Assembly: GCF_024169515.1 (NCBI RefSeq)
Contig: NZ_JAMKCQ010000001.1
Location: forward strand, 1,612,001-1,676,000
Source of the DNA: Erwinia aphidicola
GTDB taxonomy: Bacteria > Pseudomonadota > Gammaproteobacteria > Enterobacterales > Enterobacteriaceae
DNA length: 64,000 nt
Direction of reading: 5' to 3'
Below the pieces are notes generated by a model. It had not been told where the DNA came from. It worked only from the letters and a program-made list of their open reading frames with translations, and ran no database searches. This document shows positions 19,239-39,683 of the stretch, one piece after another. The stretch's first letter is position 1; each line of letters starts with the position of its first letter. The translations under genes and the position numbers were made by a program.

Positions 19239-19333
19239 TGGCGGAAGATCACAGGAGTCGAACCTGCCCGGGACCGCTGGCGGCCCCAACTGGATTTGAA
19301 GTCCAGCCGCCTCACCGGAGACGACGATCTTCC
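19239..19333 (-). tRNA. selC: tRNA-Sec (anticodon UCA)
   Basis: 95 nt including encoded CCA, the size of E. coli selC. Read on the minus strand it begins GGAAGATCGTCGTCTCCGG, has the anticodon stem CTGGACTTCAAATCCAG with TCA in the loop, the extra-long variable arm GGGGCCGCCAGCGGTCCC, and the T arm CAGGTTCGACTCCTG, ending GATCTTCCGCCA. The 8-bp acceptor stem is the Sec-specific feature. It delivers Sec to the fdoG UGA through SelA charging and SelB. selC is a well-known integration site for genomic islands. Confidence 0.98.
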
Positions 19334-34165: not shown

Positions 34166-34528
34166 ATGAAAGAACAAGTTAAGGCAGAAATCAAAGAGCT
34201 CAGCGACAAGCTGGATGCCCTTAATCACAAAGAACCCGGGCTGCTGGCCTCTGGCGAGAGCGAAAAGCTCGGCGAACTGCTGAAAGAGAAAGACAAGCTG
34301 GAAGCGGAAATCGAACGTCTGCGCGGCGTGCGTGCGGAAAACCTGAGTAAAGAAGCTCAGCAGCTGCAGCAGCTGCCGTTCAGCCGTGAAATCACCAAGA
34401 AAGAGCAGGCTAACATGGGCGCGCTGAAGAAGAGCGTGCGCGGCCTGATCGTGGTTCACCCAACGACTGCCCTGGGTCGAGAAATGGGCCTGAAAGTCAT
34501 GACTGGCTACGCTAAAACCCCATTCTAA
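34166..34528 (+). CDS. yibL: YibL, ribosome-associated small protein
   Basis: 120 aa as E. coli YibL. N-terminal coiled coil of charged heptads (residues 1-75), then conserved [32 protein letters not shown]. It lies after mtlR as in E. coli. YibL is reported to associate with ribosomes; role unclear. Weak Shine-Dalgarno. Confidence 0.93.
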
Positions 34529-34570: not shown

Positions 34571-34823
34571 GCCCTCTTGTACTCGTTCGTCTTACTCCCC
34601 CCTCCAGAATAAATATCGAAAAACATCAATAACGCGATAGTCGCGACTTTACTACTCGCTATTTTTTTATAAACAGAATTAAATATCGCAATTATCAAAT
34701 GAGAAAAAACTAACTACCGACAAAATAAACACGACGATATAATAGCCTACTCAGGATTAAATTAAGATTCGTAAGGATGCTTGTTTCGACTCAGGTAAGC
34801 GTCTTCTGTTAAGGACAATACAG

Positions 34824-35483
34824 GTGAGTGGCCATATGAGACAAAGTACAATAACCATTGTGGTAAACGATCCCAATCGCTTTTTCCAGGAAGGATTGAA
34901 GCTCTCTCTCTCTGCGAAATTAGCCACCGCCGAAACACATGCTGAGTTTACCGATTGCATCTTTAATACGCGGGCAAAAATGGTTTTTCTTGCTGAAGAT
35001 GCCTTGTCTATCGCCAATATCCACTATCTTAATCACCGCCTGCAAACACGCCCCTCCAGCGTGTTTATTATTCGTGATGGCGATGGTACGCAACAGGCAA
35101 CATCAGAGACAATGAAGAGCGACATTACTAATTATGTGCCCATTTATCGTGACTGGTCCGTCGAAAGCATTCTTGCCGTGGTGAGCGAAAAGCTCGATCA
35201 ACAACAAGATATCCGCAATATTTTCATCCCTACATGTTCTATACGCAGTGAAAATAATTTGACCAGAAGGGAAACCGAGATTCTGCGCTACCTGGCGCGA
35301 GGTATCAGTAACGGTGGCGTAGCGCGTTTTCTTCAAATTAGTGAGAAAACAGTGAGCGCTCATAAAAGAAATATTATGTCGAAGCTCAATATGATCCGCC
35401 CGGCTGAACTTAACTATTGGCTCATTCAGGAAGGGTGGTGTGAAGCCCGCTTTTCGAGTGAGTTAATGAGTAGCATTCAATAA
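34824..35483 (+). CDS. LuxR/FixJ-type regulator with degenerate receiver domain
   Basis: 219 aa from GTG 34824, with AAGGA 8 bp upstream (ATG 34836 is the alternative). The C-terminal HTH (about residues 146-205) is a good LuxR/GerE domain: LTRRETEILRYLARGISNGGVARFLQISEKTVSAHKRNIMSKLNM. The N-terminal about 120 residues resemble a receiver fold (ITIVVNDPNRFFQEGLKLSL) but the expected phospho-Asp and Lys are not evident. That is the RcsA/BglJ-like condition, which usually works as an auxiliary partner. AT-rich, unlike its neighbours. Followed after 70 bp by a lipoprotein-FKBP pair. Confidence 0.85.
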   Translation: MSGHMRQSTITIVVNDPNRFFQEGLKLSLSAKLATAETHAEFTDCIFNTRAKMVFLAEDALSIANIHYLNHRLQTRPSSVFIIRDGDGTQQATSETMKSDITNYVPIYRDWSVESILAVVSEKLDQQQDIRNIFIPTCSIRSENNLTRRETEILRYLARGISNGGVARFLQISEKTVSAHKRNIMSKLNMIRPAELNYWLIQEGWCEARFSSELMSSIQ

Positions 35484-35553
35484 GCGGATGCAATTCTTCT
35501 GTACAGCATGGGGTTATTTTCGCGCTGTAAATGATTCAAAACAGAGTTTTTTC

Positions 35554-36033
35554 ATGATAACTATTCGCCGATTTTCATTCAGTAAAAACATAACCAGAAT
35601 CACTCTATTATTAGCTTTTTTTCTTTCAGGCTGCCAGATTCTGCACCATCGTGATAAACCAGCCGCCTCTTCGGTGCCGGTAATACCCCCTATCCAGTCT
35701 GAAATATCGCAGAATCCAACTGCAATGAGTCAGAACAGGCCAGCTCCGCTGCACAATGAAAAATATGATGCGGAAAGTGAAAAGCTAAAGCAGTGCCAGT
35801 CTCAGCTTGACGCCCTTAAAACGATGAATCCCGATAAGTATAAGCGTTTGCATACCTCGTTTGATTACCTGATGAACGGGGCTGCGCAATATACCGGGAT
35901 ACGTCAGAACACCAATGTGGATACCCAGGATACGGTTGATGCACTGTATCGCTACCGGGCAAACTTGTTATGTTCTCAGATTGCGCAAGCGCTGCTGGAT
36001 AGTCTGACCAGTAGGGGTGAGGCGCGTCCATGA
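35554..36033 (+). CDS. hypothetical lipoprotein coupled to FKBP-like protein
   Basis: 159 aa from ATG 35554. Signal peptide with lipobox FLSGC (Cys27), then a Pro/Ser/Asn-rich linker (about residues 30-70) and a small charged domain with two cysteines (KQCQSQL and LLCSQIA) that may pair. The family is not recognised. The stop overlaps the FKBP start (ATGA), so the two are coupled and probably act together in the envelope. The longer frame from 35488 is rejected because it delays the lipobox. Confidence 0.7.
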   Translation: MITIRRFSFSKNITRITLLLAFFLSGCQILHHRDKPAASSVPVIPPIQSEISQNPTAMSQNRPAPLHNEKYDAESEKLKQCQSQLDALKTMNPDKYKRLHTSFDYLMNGAAQYTGIRQNTNVDTQDTVDALYRYRANLLCSQIAQALLDSLTSRGEARP

Positions 36034-37763
36034 TCGGCAAACGCTTCGTTCCTTTCGCATTTTCTCGCATTGCACTGCTTATCTGCTGTTTGACCGCCGC
36101 TAGCCAGTATGCCTGTGCCGCAGAGGGTGAAGCCCCCGCCATCCTGCAATTTGCGCGAAAGTATCAGCAGCAACAGCAGCAGTTAAACCCACCGGTTTAT
36201 CCCCCAAGGAACAAACCTCGGGTGGTTGAACATGTGGCAAAAAAACGCGCTGAGCAAGTCACCCTGCCTGTCGATAACCTTAAGTTAAAGCAGCTACAGC
36301 AGGAGCTAAAGTTAAAAGATCAGCAGCTTTCGGCGAAAAGCTCGACCATCAATCAGCTGCAGCAGAGTCGCGCTGAACTGCAAAAAACGATCGAAGCCGG
36401 ACAGAAAAAATTAGCTCAGCAGGCCGCCAGCCAGGCGTTGCTGTCACTTAAAAATGCGGCATCGCTGTTACCCACGCCTGAAACCCTGGCAGAAAAACTG
36501 AGGCAGGCTAACCAGCAGCTGAACGTTGCACGCCAGAGTGAAAGCAGCTTGCAGAGCAAGCTTAAATTGTTAAACCTGGAACTGGTTGAACTGCGTAGTA
36601 AAGTCCGATCTCAGGCAGCGACAGCCGACCGGCAGAGGGAGAGCGGGCAAAAAAATGACGCCATGGCTCAGCAGATTGACGCACTCACGCAGTCACAGAC
36701 GCACTCAAAAATCGATTTAGCACAGAGCCGCCAGCAGGTAGATCAGGCCAGAGCACAGCAGCAGAAGATTGAGCAACAGATGAAAATGTTGTCAGCTAAA
36801 ATGGAGGCTGAGCGACAGAAGTTTGCCGCAGAGAAGCAGCAGCTGCTGGAGCAAGTTTCTGCTGGCCCTAACTCAGGCGAACAGCTAGCTGCCAGCCAGC
36901 TTCAGGTTAAATCTCTGCAAGCTCAGTTAGACAGCCTCAAGCTGACCTCAACCAAAAGTAGTGATGCCCGCATCGCGGCCCTGACGGCCGACAAGCAGGC
37001 CAGCGACGAAAAAGCCAAAGAACTACAGACGAAACTGGATGCAGCATTGGCCAACAAACCGGTAGCGATGGTTACTAACCCATTAGAAGTGACTAAAGAG
37101 CAGTTAAAACAAAAAGCGTCACGAGAAGCCTATGCCATTGGTATGTCTCTTGGAGCGGAGATCTTACAGATGCAGGCTGAAAATGCGATTAATGACTTAC
37201 CAAAGGATCAGCATATTGTTTTAGGCGGGATCATTGATGCTTTTCAGAACCAGGCAAAACTCTCTTCCGATGTATTACGTACAACGCTAACTGAACTTAA
37301 CGGCCGATTAAAAAAGCAACGCGACAAAATCCATAACAACCTGGATATGGCAACGAAAAGCTACCTGGCTAAGTTTACTAAACGGAAAGGCACCATCAAA
37401 TCTGCGGCCGGTTTTTGGTACAATATAGATTACCCTGGTGATTCAGCCATTCCTAAAAATGCCACTCTTGATGTCGTGGTGAAAGAGAGCCTGACTAATG
37501 GTACCGTCATTACGGATATGGATGCCAGCGGGACGATGCTGACACAACCTGTCTCTGCATTCCCACCCGTTTTTCGTGAAGCGTTAATTAAACTCAGAAA
37601 CCACGGCTCTGCCATATTGGTAGTACCGCCTGAGCTGGCCTATGGCAGTAAGGGCTATCCTCCCAAGATTCCGCCCAATGCGACCATGGTATATCAACTT
37701 CGCATTTCAGATATATATCCAGAAAATCAGAAAAAAAATGAAGTGAAAAACGGGAATGGATGA
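36030..37763 (+). CDS. periplasmic coiled-coil protein with FKBP N and FKBP-like C domains
   Basis: 577 aa. Signal peptide (first about 30 residues, ending CACA-A). A Gln/Lys-rich coiled coil of about 270 residues (about 60-340) carries recurrent QLQQ, LKLK and Q-x-x-A heptads. Then comes a Mip/FkpA-type N domain (ASREAYAIGMSLGAEIL, about 363-460) and an FKBP-like C domain (about 465-565) ending PPELAYGSKGYPPKIPPNA. FkpA and Mip are only about 230-270 aa, so the coiled-coil extension is unusual. The aromatic catalytic pocket seems altered: where FkpA has GKEFDNS and PGWTEGL, this has TVITDMD and PPVFREAL. It may be a scaffold or chaperone with reduced isomerase activity. Coupled to the upstream lipoprotein. 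Confidence 0.8.
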   Translation: MIGKRFVPFAFSRIALLICCLTAASQYACAAEGEAPAILQFARKYQQQQQQLNPPVYPPRNKPRVVEHVAKKRAEQVTLPVDNLKLKQLQQELKLKDQQLSAKSSTINQLQQSRAELQKTIEAGQKKLAQQAASQALLSLKNAASLLPTPETLAEKLRQANQQLNVARQSESSLQSKLKLLNLELVELRSKVRSQAATADRQRESGQKNDAMAQQIDALTQSQTHSKIDLAQSRQQVDQARAQQQKIEQQMKMLSAKMEAERQKFAAEKQQLLEQVSAGPNSGEQLAASQLQVKSLQAQLDSLKLTSTKSSDARIAALTADKQASDEKAKELQTKLDAALANKPVAMVTNPLEVTKEQLKQKASREAYAIGMSLGAEILQMQAENAINDLPKDQHIVLGGIIDAFQNQAKLSSDVLRTTLTELNGRLKKQRDKIHNNLDMATKSYLAKFTKRKGTIKSAAGFWYNIDYPGDSAIPKNATLDVVVKESLTNGTVITDMDASGTMLTQPVSAFPPVFREALIKLRNHGSAILVVPPELAYGSKGYPPKIPPNATMVYQLRISDIYPENQKKNEVKNGNG

Positions 37764-37792
37764 TTAAAAATCATCAAGCATAAACGGTTTGG

Positions 37793-37821
37793 CAAAAAAA
37801 AACGCAACCTGTGCGGTTGCG
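37793..37821 (-). terminator. terminator of the FaeA/PapI-like gene
   Basis: Stem CGCAACC/GGTTGCG (37803-37821). On the minus strand it is followed by a run of nine T. Confidence 0.8.
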
Positions 37822-37832
37822 CCATAAGAGCC

Positions 37833-38084
37833 TTAAGCCCTGAAAAGATCTGTCTTATCCCAAAATAAACTTTTACGGTTTTCTCTCTTCACTGAAGTGA
37901 CAACCCCTTCCTGCTCCAGCTTTATAAGAACATGACGTGTGTTATAAATGCTTAGTTCGGAACGGTTAGCAATGTCTCTGGTGGTTGCGTAAACGGAGGA
38001 GGTTCCATCATGGCCATTCTCCTCAAAAAATGCTTTCAAAGCATGAATAACTTTATCTACTGCTGTTTTTCTTTGAGTGCTCAT
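37833..38084 (-). CDS. FaeA/PapI-family winged-helix regulator
   Basis: 83 aa from ATG 38082-38084 behind GAGAGG. It holds a small wHTH (about residues 28-75: TTRDIANRSELSIYNTRHVLIKLEQEGVV) with a basic C-terminal wing, KRENRKSLFW. The pattern matches FaeA and PapI, the small regulators that work with Lrp in fimbrial phase variation. No fimbrial genes are adjacent, and no GATC lies in the upstream gap. Convergent with the FKBP gene and divergent from the ToxR-like gene. Confidence 0.72.
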   Translation of the reverse strand: MSTQRKTAVDKVIHALKAFFEENGHDGTSSVYATTRDIANRSELSIYNTRHVLIKLEQEGVVTSVKRENRKSLFWDKTDLFRA

Positions 38085-38135
38085 TATACCTCTCCTTTTC
38101 TCTATTCCGGCTCCTGCCGCATAATGAAAAATGAT

Positions 38136-38158
38136 AAAAAACCTGCTTAACCGCAGGT
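38136..38158 (-). terminator. terminator-like hairpin in the leader of the FaeA/PapI-like gene
   Basis: On the minus strand ACCTGC-ggttaa-GCAGGT is followed by TTTTTT, 52 bp upstream of the start codon. It may act as an attenuator or end a short leader RNA. The rest of 38085-38451 is very AT-rich and holds divergent promoters that I cannot place. Confidence 0.5.
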
Positions 38159-38451
38159 GAACAATGATAGTACGAGCACAATCCAAACAAAACTTAATAT
38201 CAATTATTAATGAATATTAAAATATATCACCTTTAATAATTAATTTTGCAGTACAAATCACTAAATAGTCCAAAATACGCTGATTCATTAAAAGGAATAA
38301 CTGACACAATTAATCTCAACTTAAAATTAATAATCAGACAAGAAAATATTTTTCAATCATAAGTAAAAACCCGGAAAAGTGAGTTTCATTGACATCTCAA
38401 ACGGTTATCCGGATAATCACCACGCTAATGACGGATTATATTGATAAAACA

Positions 38452-39204
38452 ATGGAATATTTTATTAATCAAAAGTTTCATTTTGATGGCATAAATGAAA
38501 CGATCAAACCCATCGACCGCGACACGCCACTGATTAAACTCTCCAAACCCAGCAGCCGATTATTAGAGGAACTGTTAACTCAACCTGGCATCACTCTCTC
38601 CCGGGAAGAACTGTTACAAACCGTATGGGAAAATCATGGATTAACCCCCTCTACCAGCAATCTAAGCAACCATATTAGCTTCTTAAGAAAGGTATTCTCT
38701 CAGCTAGGCGAGCATGAAAGAACCATTATTACCGTGCCAAAGGAGGGGTTTAAAATTGAGGCAAACGTCACTTGTAAAGAATCAGAGCATACGCACGATA
38801 TAAAAAACAATGAAGATAAAACCAAAATAAACCAACACAGCAAAACAGATAAATTATATTTATCAGTTTTTTTTATCATCGCTGTCTCGATCGTGGTGAT
38901 TCTTTTGTTACTTCACTACTGCCGCCCGGCATCAATCAACGTAGAAAAATGCCAAATCAGAGAGATATCACATGAAAGTCATGAATTCAGAAAAAACAAC
39001 ATAAAAACGTTAAAAAGATTCATCAGGAAATACAGCATTGACTGCGAAAGCAGAGATAGCGTTATTTTTTATAAGTTTTCAAATACCAAAACCACTAATA
39101 ACAAAGATCCGGATCTTACCTTTATATCTCAGTGCGAAGTAACAGCAAATGACACCCTTTCTCACTGCGAGAATTATTTTTCAATTTTACTAAAAAAACC
39201 ATGA
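38452..39204 (+). CDS. ToxR/CadC-like transmembrane transcriptional regulator (MarT-like)
   Basis: 250 aa. A cytoplasmic OmpR-type winged HTH (about residues 15-107: LTQPGITLSREELLQTVWENHG; SNLSNHISFLRKVF; TVPKEGFKI) is followed by a charged linker, one membrane helix (136-157) and a periplasmic domain of about 90 residues with several cysteines. Architecture as ToxR, CadC and Salmonella MarT. ATG 38452 (MEYFINQKF) is chosen because relatives start there; ATG 38428 or TTG 38389 are possible. Overlaps the FidL-like gene by 4 bp, the same pairing as marT-fidL. The target is unknown. Confidence 0.82.
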   Translation: MEYFINQKFHFDGINETIKPIDRDTPLIKLSKPSSRLLEELLTQPGITLSREELLQTVWENHGLTPSTSNLSNHISFLRKVFSQLGEHERTIITVPKEGFKIEANVTCKESEHTHDIKNNEDKTKINQHSKTDKLYLSVFFIIAVSIVVILLLLHYCRPASINVEKCQIREISHESHEFRKNNIKTLKRFIRKYSIDCESRDSVIFYKFSNTKTTNNKDPDLTFISQCEVTANDTLSHCENYFSILLKKP

Positions 39205-39683
39205 GAAATATTATGCTGGCCATCGGGTTTTCGGCCCTGGTTATCATCGGCCAGAGTATCTACTTCCTTTGTGCCAGACCTGATGATAATCGACATCCGC
39301 TGGTTTTGTCATGCCGGGCTGAGGTCCAGTTCGACATTCAACTGCCGGACTCAACCACCCTGATGAACGGCAGCCTGAGCCTGACAACGCTGGGTAGAGA
39401 GCGTTTGGCGCTGCAATATTCAGGGCAGCTAATCGCTAATCAACAGCACACCACGCTTAGCAGGACGCTGATAATGCACTATCGCTATTATCCAGAAAAT
39501 CATGCCCTTGAGCTGGAATATATCCGTAGTCACGTCAGCGACGTGGATACCACGCCAGATGATGTCTTCTATCGTGCATTGCTAAAGAAAGATGCTTTTA
39601 TCCTCACCCTGAAGCAAATTGCCAACAATGCGCGCCTTGTTTCACTGCCGGGCATCCCGCTGTACGTTTGCATCGACCAGTAA
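39201..39683 (+). CDS. FidL-like membrane-anchored protein
   Basis: 160 aa. N-terminal membrane anchor (about residues 4-24), then a periplasmic beta-rich domain beginning LSCRAEVQFDIQLPDS with MNGSLSLTTLGRERLALQYSG. It resembles the FidL family encoded next to MarT-type regulators in Salmonella SPI-3 and others. By analogy with ToxS it may bind and tune the ToxR-like partner's periplasmic domain. Start overlaps the regulator stop (ATGA). Confidence 0.72.
   Translation: MRNIMLAIGFSALVIIGQSIYFLCARPDDNRHPLVLSCRAEVQFDIQLPDSTTLMNGSLSLTTLGRERLALQYSGQLIANQQHTTLSRTLIMHYRYYPENHALELEYIRSHVSDVDTTPDDVFYRALLKKDAFILTLKQIANNARLVSLPGIPLYVCIDQ

Follow-up and report, generated by a model that had tools for sequence, protein, structure and literature searches.

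Co-component systems, among them VtrA/VtrC, MarT/FidL, PsaE/PsaF, GrvA/FidL and ToxR/ToxS, are a published class of regulators in which a winged-helix protein with one membrane segment and a cysteine-bearing end is partnered by a lipocalin-like protein encoded in an overlapping downstream gene (PMC9214523). Among chaperone-usher fimbriae, MR/P-like loci with a gene for a coiled-coil-type FKBP beside those for subunits, usher and chaperone are present on plasmids of Escherichia marmotae and Escherichia albertii and in the mrf-annotated operon of Serratia marcescens p14VA2; the E. marmotae locus adds a FaeA/PapI regulator. Components of both kinds meet in a six-gene block at positions 34824..39683 of a 64,000-nucleotide stretch of Erwinia aphidicola DNA (contig NZ_JAMKCQ010000001.1; the whole stretch is hereafter the window), which encodes a LuxR-type regulator, a lipoprotein, a coiled-coil FKBP, a FaeA/PapI-like regulator, a ToxR-like membrane regulator and a FidL-like protein. 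Unlike the plasmid loci, the window holds no usher, chaperone or subunit gene between yibL and rbsB, the genes on either side of the block; the gene table of the three plasmid stretches, which is incomplete, lists no ToxR-like/FidL-like pair. A preliminary description of the window had held that no described system has this set. That was too strong, since the LuxR protein, the lipoprotein and the coiled-coil FKBP are parts of MR/P-like loci, and the co-component pair is of a published kind (PMC9214523). We consider it likely that these six genes make up the accessory-and-control cassette of an MR/P-like chaperone-usher locus and that selection has maintained them here, whether the operon adjoining them in sister species was lost or never present. 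The finding is real and linked to fimbriae; the block is not just a ruin, nor is it an entirely new system.

Of 37 genus genomes (numbered G below, with individual loci numbered L), 36 contain the mtlR-yibL stretch, and 20 yibL loci, namely the window, ten picked by FKBP or lipoprotein matches and nine others, were read by open reading frame (ORF) clustering and tblastn. The yibL loci of the other 17 genomes lay outside this reading; the lipoprotein search took in all 37. Searching for the same six genes together in other genomes had been proposed in the preliminary description, and they do co-occur: all six are present at 11 of the 20 loci, four loci are reduced and five have none (G003, G007, G012, G017 and G023, with the sugar-ABC operon present in all five). 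Because it is conserved in other species, the six-gene set is more than a chance assembly. Seven full cassettes stand without fimbriae, in the genome of the window (G000), its near twin Erwinia aphidicola JCM 21238 (G060, with a 99% identical lipoprotein), G005, G010, G014, G032 and G034; four have a fimbrial operon as well, in G001 (over two contigs), Pantoea coffeiphila (G006), G011 and G013. The reduced loci (G008, G015, G016 and G020) keep the LuxR and FaeA genes; lipoprotein, FKBP and FidL-like genes were not found there, and the ToxR-like gene is truncated in three and was not found in G008.

In the four fimbria-bearing relatives, the comparison places a complete chaperone-usher operon, flanked by the six genes, at this same site between yibL and the LuxR gene. 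Pfam assigns the Fimbrial domain to five proteins of the G013 operon, alongside an usher with Usher, PapC_N and PapC_C and a chaperone with PapD_N and PapD_C. Relative to the G006 usher, those of G011 and G013 are 91% and 87% identical, and that of G001 is only 46% identical (its chaperone 53%), with an MrpH_C adhesin domain encoded by the last gene of the G001 operon. The G001 cassette, by contrast, retains identities to G006 of 91% for LuxR, 77% for the lipoprotein, 66-68% for the FKBP, 62% for the ToxR-like and 74% for the FidL-like protein, and the ~270 base pairs (bp) upstream of its first subunit gene are 71-76% alike to those of the other fimbria-bearing genomes. Since usher and chaperone diverge while cassette and upstream region stay alike, it looks as though the operon has been exchanged beside a kept cassette and promoter. 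A tblastx search with the G013 and G001 operons recovered no fimbrial relic from the yibL-LuxR gap of 11 loci (the window, G060, five more six-gene loci and the four reduced ones); its best match, at E 0.27, fell in an overlong G005 stretch that holds yibL.

The same parts recur elsewhere. Scanning named genomes with the lipoprotein alignment returned 21 loci in Erwinia, Pantoea, Winslowiella and Serratia, seven of which are the yibL locus; an FKBP gene accompanies the lipoprotein in 20 (not L145) and an usher gene lies within the fetched stretch in 15. These counts, together with the fimbrial operon adjoining four of the 11 full cassettes, are why we read the block as the accessory-and-control end of an MR/P-like locus. 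Commonly, subunits, usher, chaperone and further subunits are followed by LuxR, lipoprotein and FKBP genes, sometimes after a PglL gene; elsewhere this module is divergent or LuxR is its last gene. By sequence comparison, then, the LuxR, lipoprotein and coiled-coil FKBP genes have relatives linked to usher operons at further loci and in other genera, and the lipoprotein and FKBP appear to be recurrent companions of MR/P-like fimbriae, a pair found in no listed literature title. Nor did any title place an FKBP within a fimbrial locus, in a search of titles that most subscription papers lay outside. Among plasmid records, 57 (28 of them from Escherichia) have an FKBP match, and an usher operon adjoins the gene in all three viewed; the remaining 54 may include ordinary relatives of FkpA/FklB.

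Across the 37 genus genomes, the lipoprotein is detected at E 0.001 in 16, or 14 once the weak matches of G004 and G024 (5e-4 to 8e-4) are dropped, and a G013-related usher (E 1e-200 or better) in 21, including all 14; Fisher's test of this co-occurrence, not corrected for kinship, gives p 1.9e-5. Within the window's own genome, the lipoprotein and an FKBP of this kind occur only in the window (two other FKBP matches align to the FKBP part alone), and no FKBP gene lies close to either of the related usher operons, C1:1700300 and C1:3427782. At the apparent counterpart of the C1:3427782 site, with neighbours judged by eye, G011 and G013 carry a lipoprotein and an FKBP gene (L100 and L101). The cassette probably stands ready to regulate and assemble fimbriae whose genes lie elsewhere on the chromosome; in fimbria-less species, it would serve the other fimbrial operons of its own genome, putatively in trans.

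To gauge constraint, we estimated ratios of nonsynonymous to synonymous substitution (dN/dS) after Nei and Gojobori; these are rough, as dS is often above 1 and in places undefined (for five of the six genes when the window is compared with G010). Between fimbria-less species, dN/dS was 0.065-0.144 for LuxR, 0.16-0.26 for the lipoprotein, 0.16-0.20 for the FKBP, 0.07-0.20 for FaeA, 0.17-0.26 for the ToxR-like gene and 0.19-0.21 (two pairs) for the FidL-like gene. The corresponding values between fimbria-bearing species were 0.05-0.07, 0.17-0.22, 0.09-0.12, 0.10-0.19, 0.17 and 0.16-0.19, and flanking genes evolve more slowly (highest dN/dS 0.10). Window and G060 differ at 0.07-0.29, apart from an uninformative 0.95 for the FidL-like gene on a dS of ~0.01. 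For the reduced clade, LuxR gives 0.07-0.09, FaeA 0.35 (dS 0.10) and the truncated ToxR-like gene 0.28 (dS 0.20). In fimbria-less species the ratios stay far under 1, and by these estimates the cassette is constrained there, without visible decay. A midpoint-rooted FastTree phylogeny was built from four clusters of flanking genes, each gene filling 17-20 of 20 rows. It places the fimbria-bearing genomes in a single clade and most full cassettes without fimbriae in a second; G005 falls beside the reduced clade, and support is low at some nodes (0.32, 0.48). Loss of the fimbrial operon would be favoured by the linkage of the module to ushers elsewhere.

Several observations weigh against a fimbrial cassette kept by selection. 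The tree itself is equally compatible with a single loss and with a single gain of the operon, and dS is partly saturated. Six of the 21 lipoprotein loci are without an usher, comprising the fimbria-less yibL loci L131 and L135-L137, the Pantoea plasmid locus L141, and L151, a second E. persicina locus. Seven of the 37 genomes have related ushers without such a lipoprotein, so ushers of that type can do without the helpers. G015 and G020 keep LuxR and FaeA without the helpers or a related usher, with three other ushers each, and LuxR may therefore have other targets. No upstream stretch is common to the cassette and its own or other fimbrial operons among seven operon promoters, and an 18-bp element of the cassette, AAAACTTAATATCAATTA (38189..38206, in the intergenic region between the FaeA-like and ToxR-like genes), marks no further promoter in its own genome, where one exact copy and four near matches occur and a reversed control also gives four. 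That E. persicina locus (L097/L151, strain CFBP8797) has a second lipoprotein and FKBP pair with no usher in the fetched 20 kb, and an usher ~40 kb off on the same contig.

Were the fimbrial operon simply deleted and the cassette decaying without function, broken genes would be expected, and some are seen: the FKBP frame of G032 (L095) is broken near its C-terminal end, its other five genes being open, and the reduced clade is without lipoprotein, FKBP and FidL-like genes, its ToxR-like gene truncated in three genomes and undetected in G008. Six of the seven fimbria-less genomes, on the other hand, keep all six frames open (the FidL-like frame of G034 included), interspecies dN/dS is 0.07-0.26, and absence of the operon spans a whole clade and so is not recent; we judge this explanation improbable. 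The preliminary description had itself allowed that neighbouring strains might have a normal fimbrial operon here, which would make the block its degraded remainder: the operon does stand here in sister species, and the block, G032 excepted, does not look degraded. Its wider interpretation holds in part, in that the genes belong together and the regulators are of the adhesin type. Somewhat harder to credit is an independent envelope-sensing regulon that controls non-fimbrial genes, such as the adjacent sugar-ABC operon or surface polysaccharide. The constraint on LuxR (dN/dS 0.09) in G015 and G020, which lack related ushers, speaks for it, as do the FaeA gene also kept there (at 0.35, on a dS of just 0.10) and the position of the cassette next to the ABC operon in the loci read. 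Against it, the ABC operon stands without the cassette in all five cassette-free genomes, and relatives of LuxR, lipoprotein and FKBP accompany usher operons at further loci and in other genera.

Farthest from the evidence is a trimeric-autotransporter locus like SadB/SadA, which we give hardly any credence. SadB/SadA lies near yibL in Salmonella and E. coli, and the shared chromosomal neighbourhood and presence of a lipoprotein make a resemblance; the lipoprotein profile nevertheless has no solved relative, and its neighbours in related genomes are chaperone-usher genes. A link to SadA/UpaG was also rejected on a YadA_anchor search, with no match in the window's own genome and a positive E. 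coli control. Returning to the cassette as the accessory-and-control end of a fimbrial locus, one tentative extension, which we regard as possible and would not press, is that the Erwinia yibL locus works as a docking site for fimbriae, where whole operons are exchanged (compare the G001 usher with those of G006, G011 and G013) or dropped beside a standing six-gene cassette; once undocked, the cassette would control and help assemble fimbriae encoded elsewhere in trans, its catalytically altered FKBP serving as a periplasmic scaffold on a length-variable coiled coil. On the reading that we favour, the window holds an orphaned but selected fimbrial regulator and assembly cassette that possibly acts in trans, and regulators that persist here without the operon which adjoins them in sister species offer a testable case of a putative cis-to-trans change of control.

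The sensory part of the cassette is the ToxR-like/FidL-like pair, present in all 11 full cassettes. The ToxR/CadC-like, membrane-tethered transcription factor (38452..39204, plus strand), the VtrA-like half, matches Trans_reg_C at 2.3e-13, has one strongly hydrophobic segment by hydropathy (residues 136-154) and ends in a cysteine-bearing part (Cys 157, 167, 198, 228 and 239 of 250 residues). Its partner, a FidL-like, lipocalin-like periplasmic protein and VtrC/ToxS-like half (39201..39683, plus strand), is encoded across an ATGA overlap; the AlphaFold2 model (predicted local distance difference test, pLDDT, 78) has ToxS and VtrC as best PDB matches, with cysteines in the first and last strands. 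On this modelled fold, the pair is probably a VtrA/VtrC-type co-component sensor, sharing with that class the winged helix, the single membrane segment, the cysteine-bearing end, the overlapping downstream gene and the lipocalin-like partner, and differing in its divergent sequence and in a FidL_like (PF15941) match of 26.7 bits, just below the cut-off of 27. It is not in Table 1 of the paper on the class, the main text of which has no Erwinia, Serratia or fimbria (PMC9214523), and its presence here links a little-explored class to fimbriae in Erwinia and relatives. The two genes are adjacent without overlap in G034, a scan of viral contigs gave no relative of the FidL-like protein, and a ToxR-like/FidL-like pair lies near the first subunit gene of the fimbrial loci L109, L183, L184 and L186 (FidL_like at 22.3 bits in L183, under the cut-off, and no match in L109). 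In VtrA/VtrC-type systems, ligand binding by the heterodimer drives transcription. The pair of the window would respond to a periplasmic cue, small and hydrophobic or from the envelope, and act jointly with the LuxR and FaeA-like factors to switch fimbrial genes.

The lipoprotein (35554..36033, plus strand; 18-member alignment) has an LSGC lipobox, Gln after the Cys and a predicted three-helix domain. Its one Pfam match is at chance level (Ada3, E 0.086); AlphaFold2 pLDDT is ~80-96 from residue 71 on (mean 71 overall), the predicted fold has no PDB match at E up to 0.001, and the sequence profile none among solved structures at E up to 1. The FKBP gene (36030..37763, plus strand) encodes an exported coiled-coil protein with C-terminal FKBP_N (1.8e-9) and FKBP_C (4.4e-9) domains, both over the Pfam cut-off. 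It shares this arrangement and export with FkpA, and differs by a long Q/A/L/K-rich coiled coil and an altered active site: at positions that we take to be catalytic, alignments with FkpA and the family show Tyr replaced by Val/Ile, Phe by Ile/Val, Asp by Thr/Gln/Glu/Ser and Trp by Phe, the Tyr of the AYG stretch being retained in nearly all members. The protein, as aligned, has lost several usual catalytic residues, and may bind prolines without isomerising them. Four FKBP proteins contain no internal repeats that would explain the differences in coiled-coil length. Together, lipoprotein and FKBP may act as a periplasmic or outer-membrane aid to subunit or usher handling.

The LuxR/GerE-type regulator (34836..35483, plus strand; Pfam GerE E 7e-17) has an orthologue at each of the 15 loci where the cassette is full or reduced. 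No Response_reg match appears at E up to 1, and PDB sequence matches begin at residue 112 or later with one exception at 82; the protein may contain a degenerate receiver fold. Upstream lies a conserved element (34671..34692, plus strand) containing AATATCGCAAT at 34682-34692, which over 21-28 bp is 86-100% alike in G010, G014, G032 and G034, and the palindrome GCGATATAATATATCGC, exact or near-exact, precedes LuxR in all four fimbria-bearing genomes. Three LuxR-like genes of the same type surround one fimbrial locus on the chromosome of Pantoea sp. SOD02 (L146). The FaeA/PapI-like winged-helix regulator (37833..38084, minus strand; Pfam FaeA 24.1 bits, cut-off 20.7) shares its domain with PapI/FaeA proteins, and its relatives have the fimbrial context; it differs from them in that neither the yibL-LuxR nor the FaeA-ToxR-like intergenic region of the window contains a GATC site. 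A Pap-type, Dam-dependent GATC switch therefore has no support at the locus. Within 500 bp upstream of the genome's own fimbrial operons, GATC occurs three times each at L181 and L182 and not at L180. The 18-bp element has no mismatch in 10 of the 11 genomes with a full cassette and one mismatch in G032 and in the four reduced loci; L100, L101 and L142, three other fimbrial loci, have near matches to it that differ at three positions. ATATCGCAAT is a further candidate DNA element.

As for the make-up of the block, much of the preliminary description stands. The six ORFs lie between yibL (34166-34528) and the rbs-like sugar-ABC operon (from 39741), the block is AT-richer (G+C 44%, against 56% in ~13 kb of flanks), the ATGA overlaps of the lipoprotein/FKBP (36030-36033) and ToxR-like/FidL-like genes (39201-39204) are real, no fimbrial gene is present, LuxR is without a recognisable receiver domain, and the regulators are of fimbria or adhesin type. 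Homology alignments amend four starts (LuxR 34836, lipoprotein 35554, FaeA-like 38084 on the minus strand for 83 residues, ToxR-like 38452). The division into three regulators and three envelope proteins becomes four regulatory and two envelope or periplasmic genes, because the FidL-like protein fits better as the sensory partner of the ToxR-like regulator than among the envelope components. A PHROGs search gave weak helix-turn-helix-type matches only.

A PglL/Wzy_C-type (O-oligosaccharyltransferase-like) gene lies in or near the fimbrial loci L102, L103, L109, L138, L139, L143, L144, L145, L148, L186 and L187, which suggests that these fimbriae are glycosylated; Pfam finds Wzy_C in all three examined (L103, L109 and L186) and PglL_A in two, the other loci being assigned by blast label or cluster alone. 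At the G007 yibL locus (L113), the space between yibL (82%, tblastn) and the ABC operon is taken by an insert of another kind, with a small TraY/RHH-like protein, so this interval may be an insertion hotspot. Finally, a tRNA-SeC gene lies at 19239-19333 of the window on the minus strand, ~19 kb from the ToxR-like/FidL-like pair; in Salmonella, selC adjoins the MarT/FidL island.
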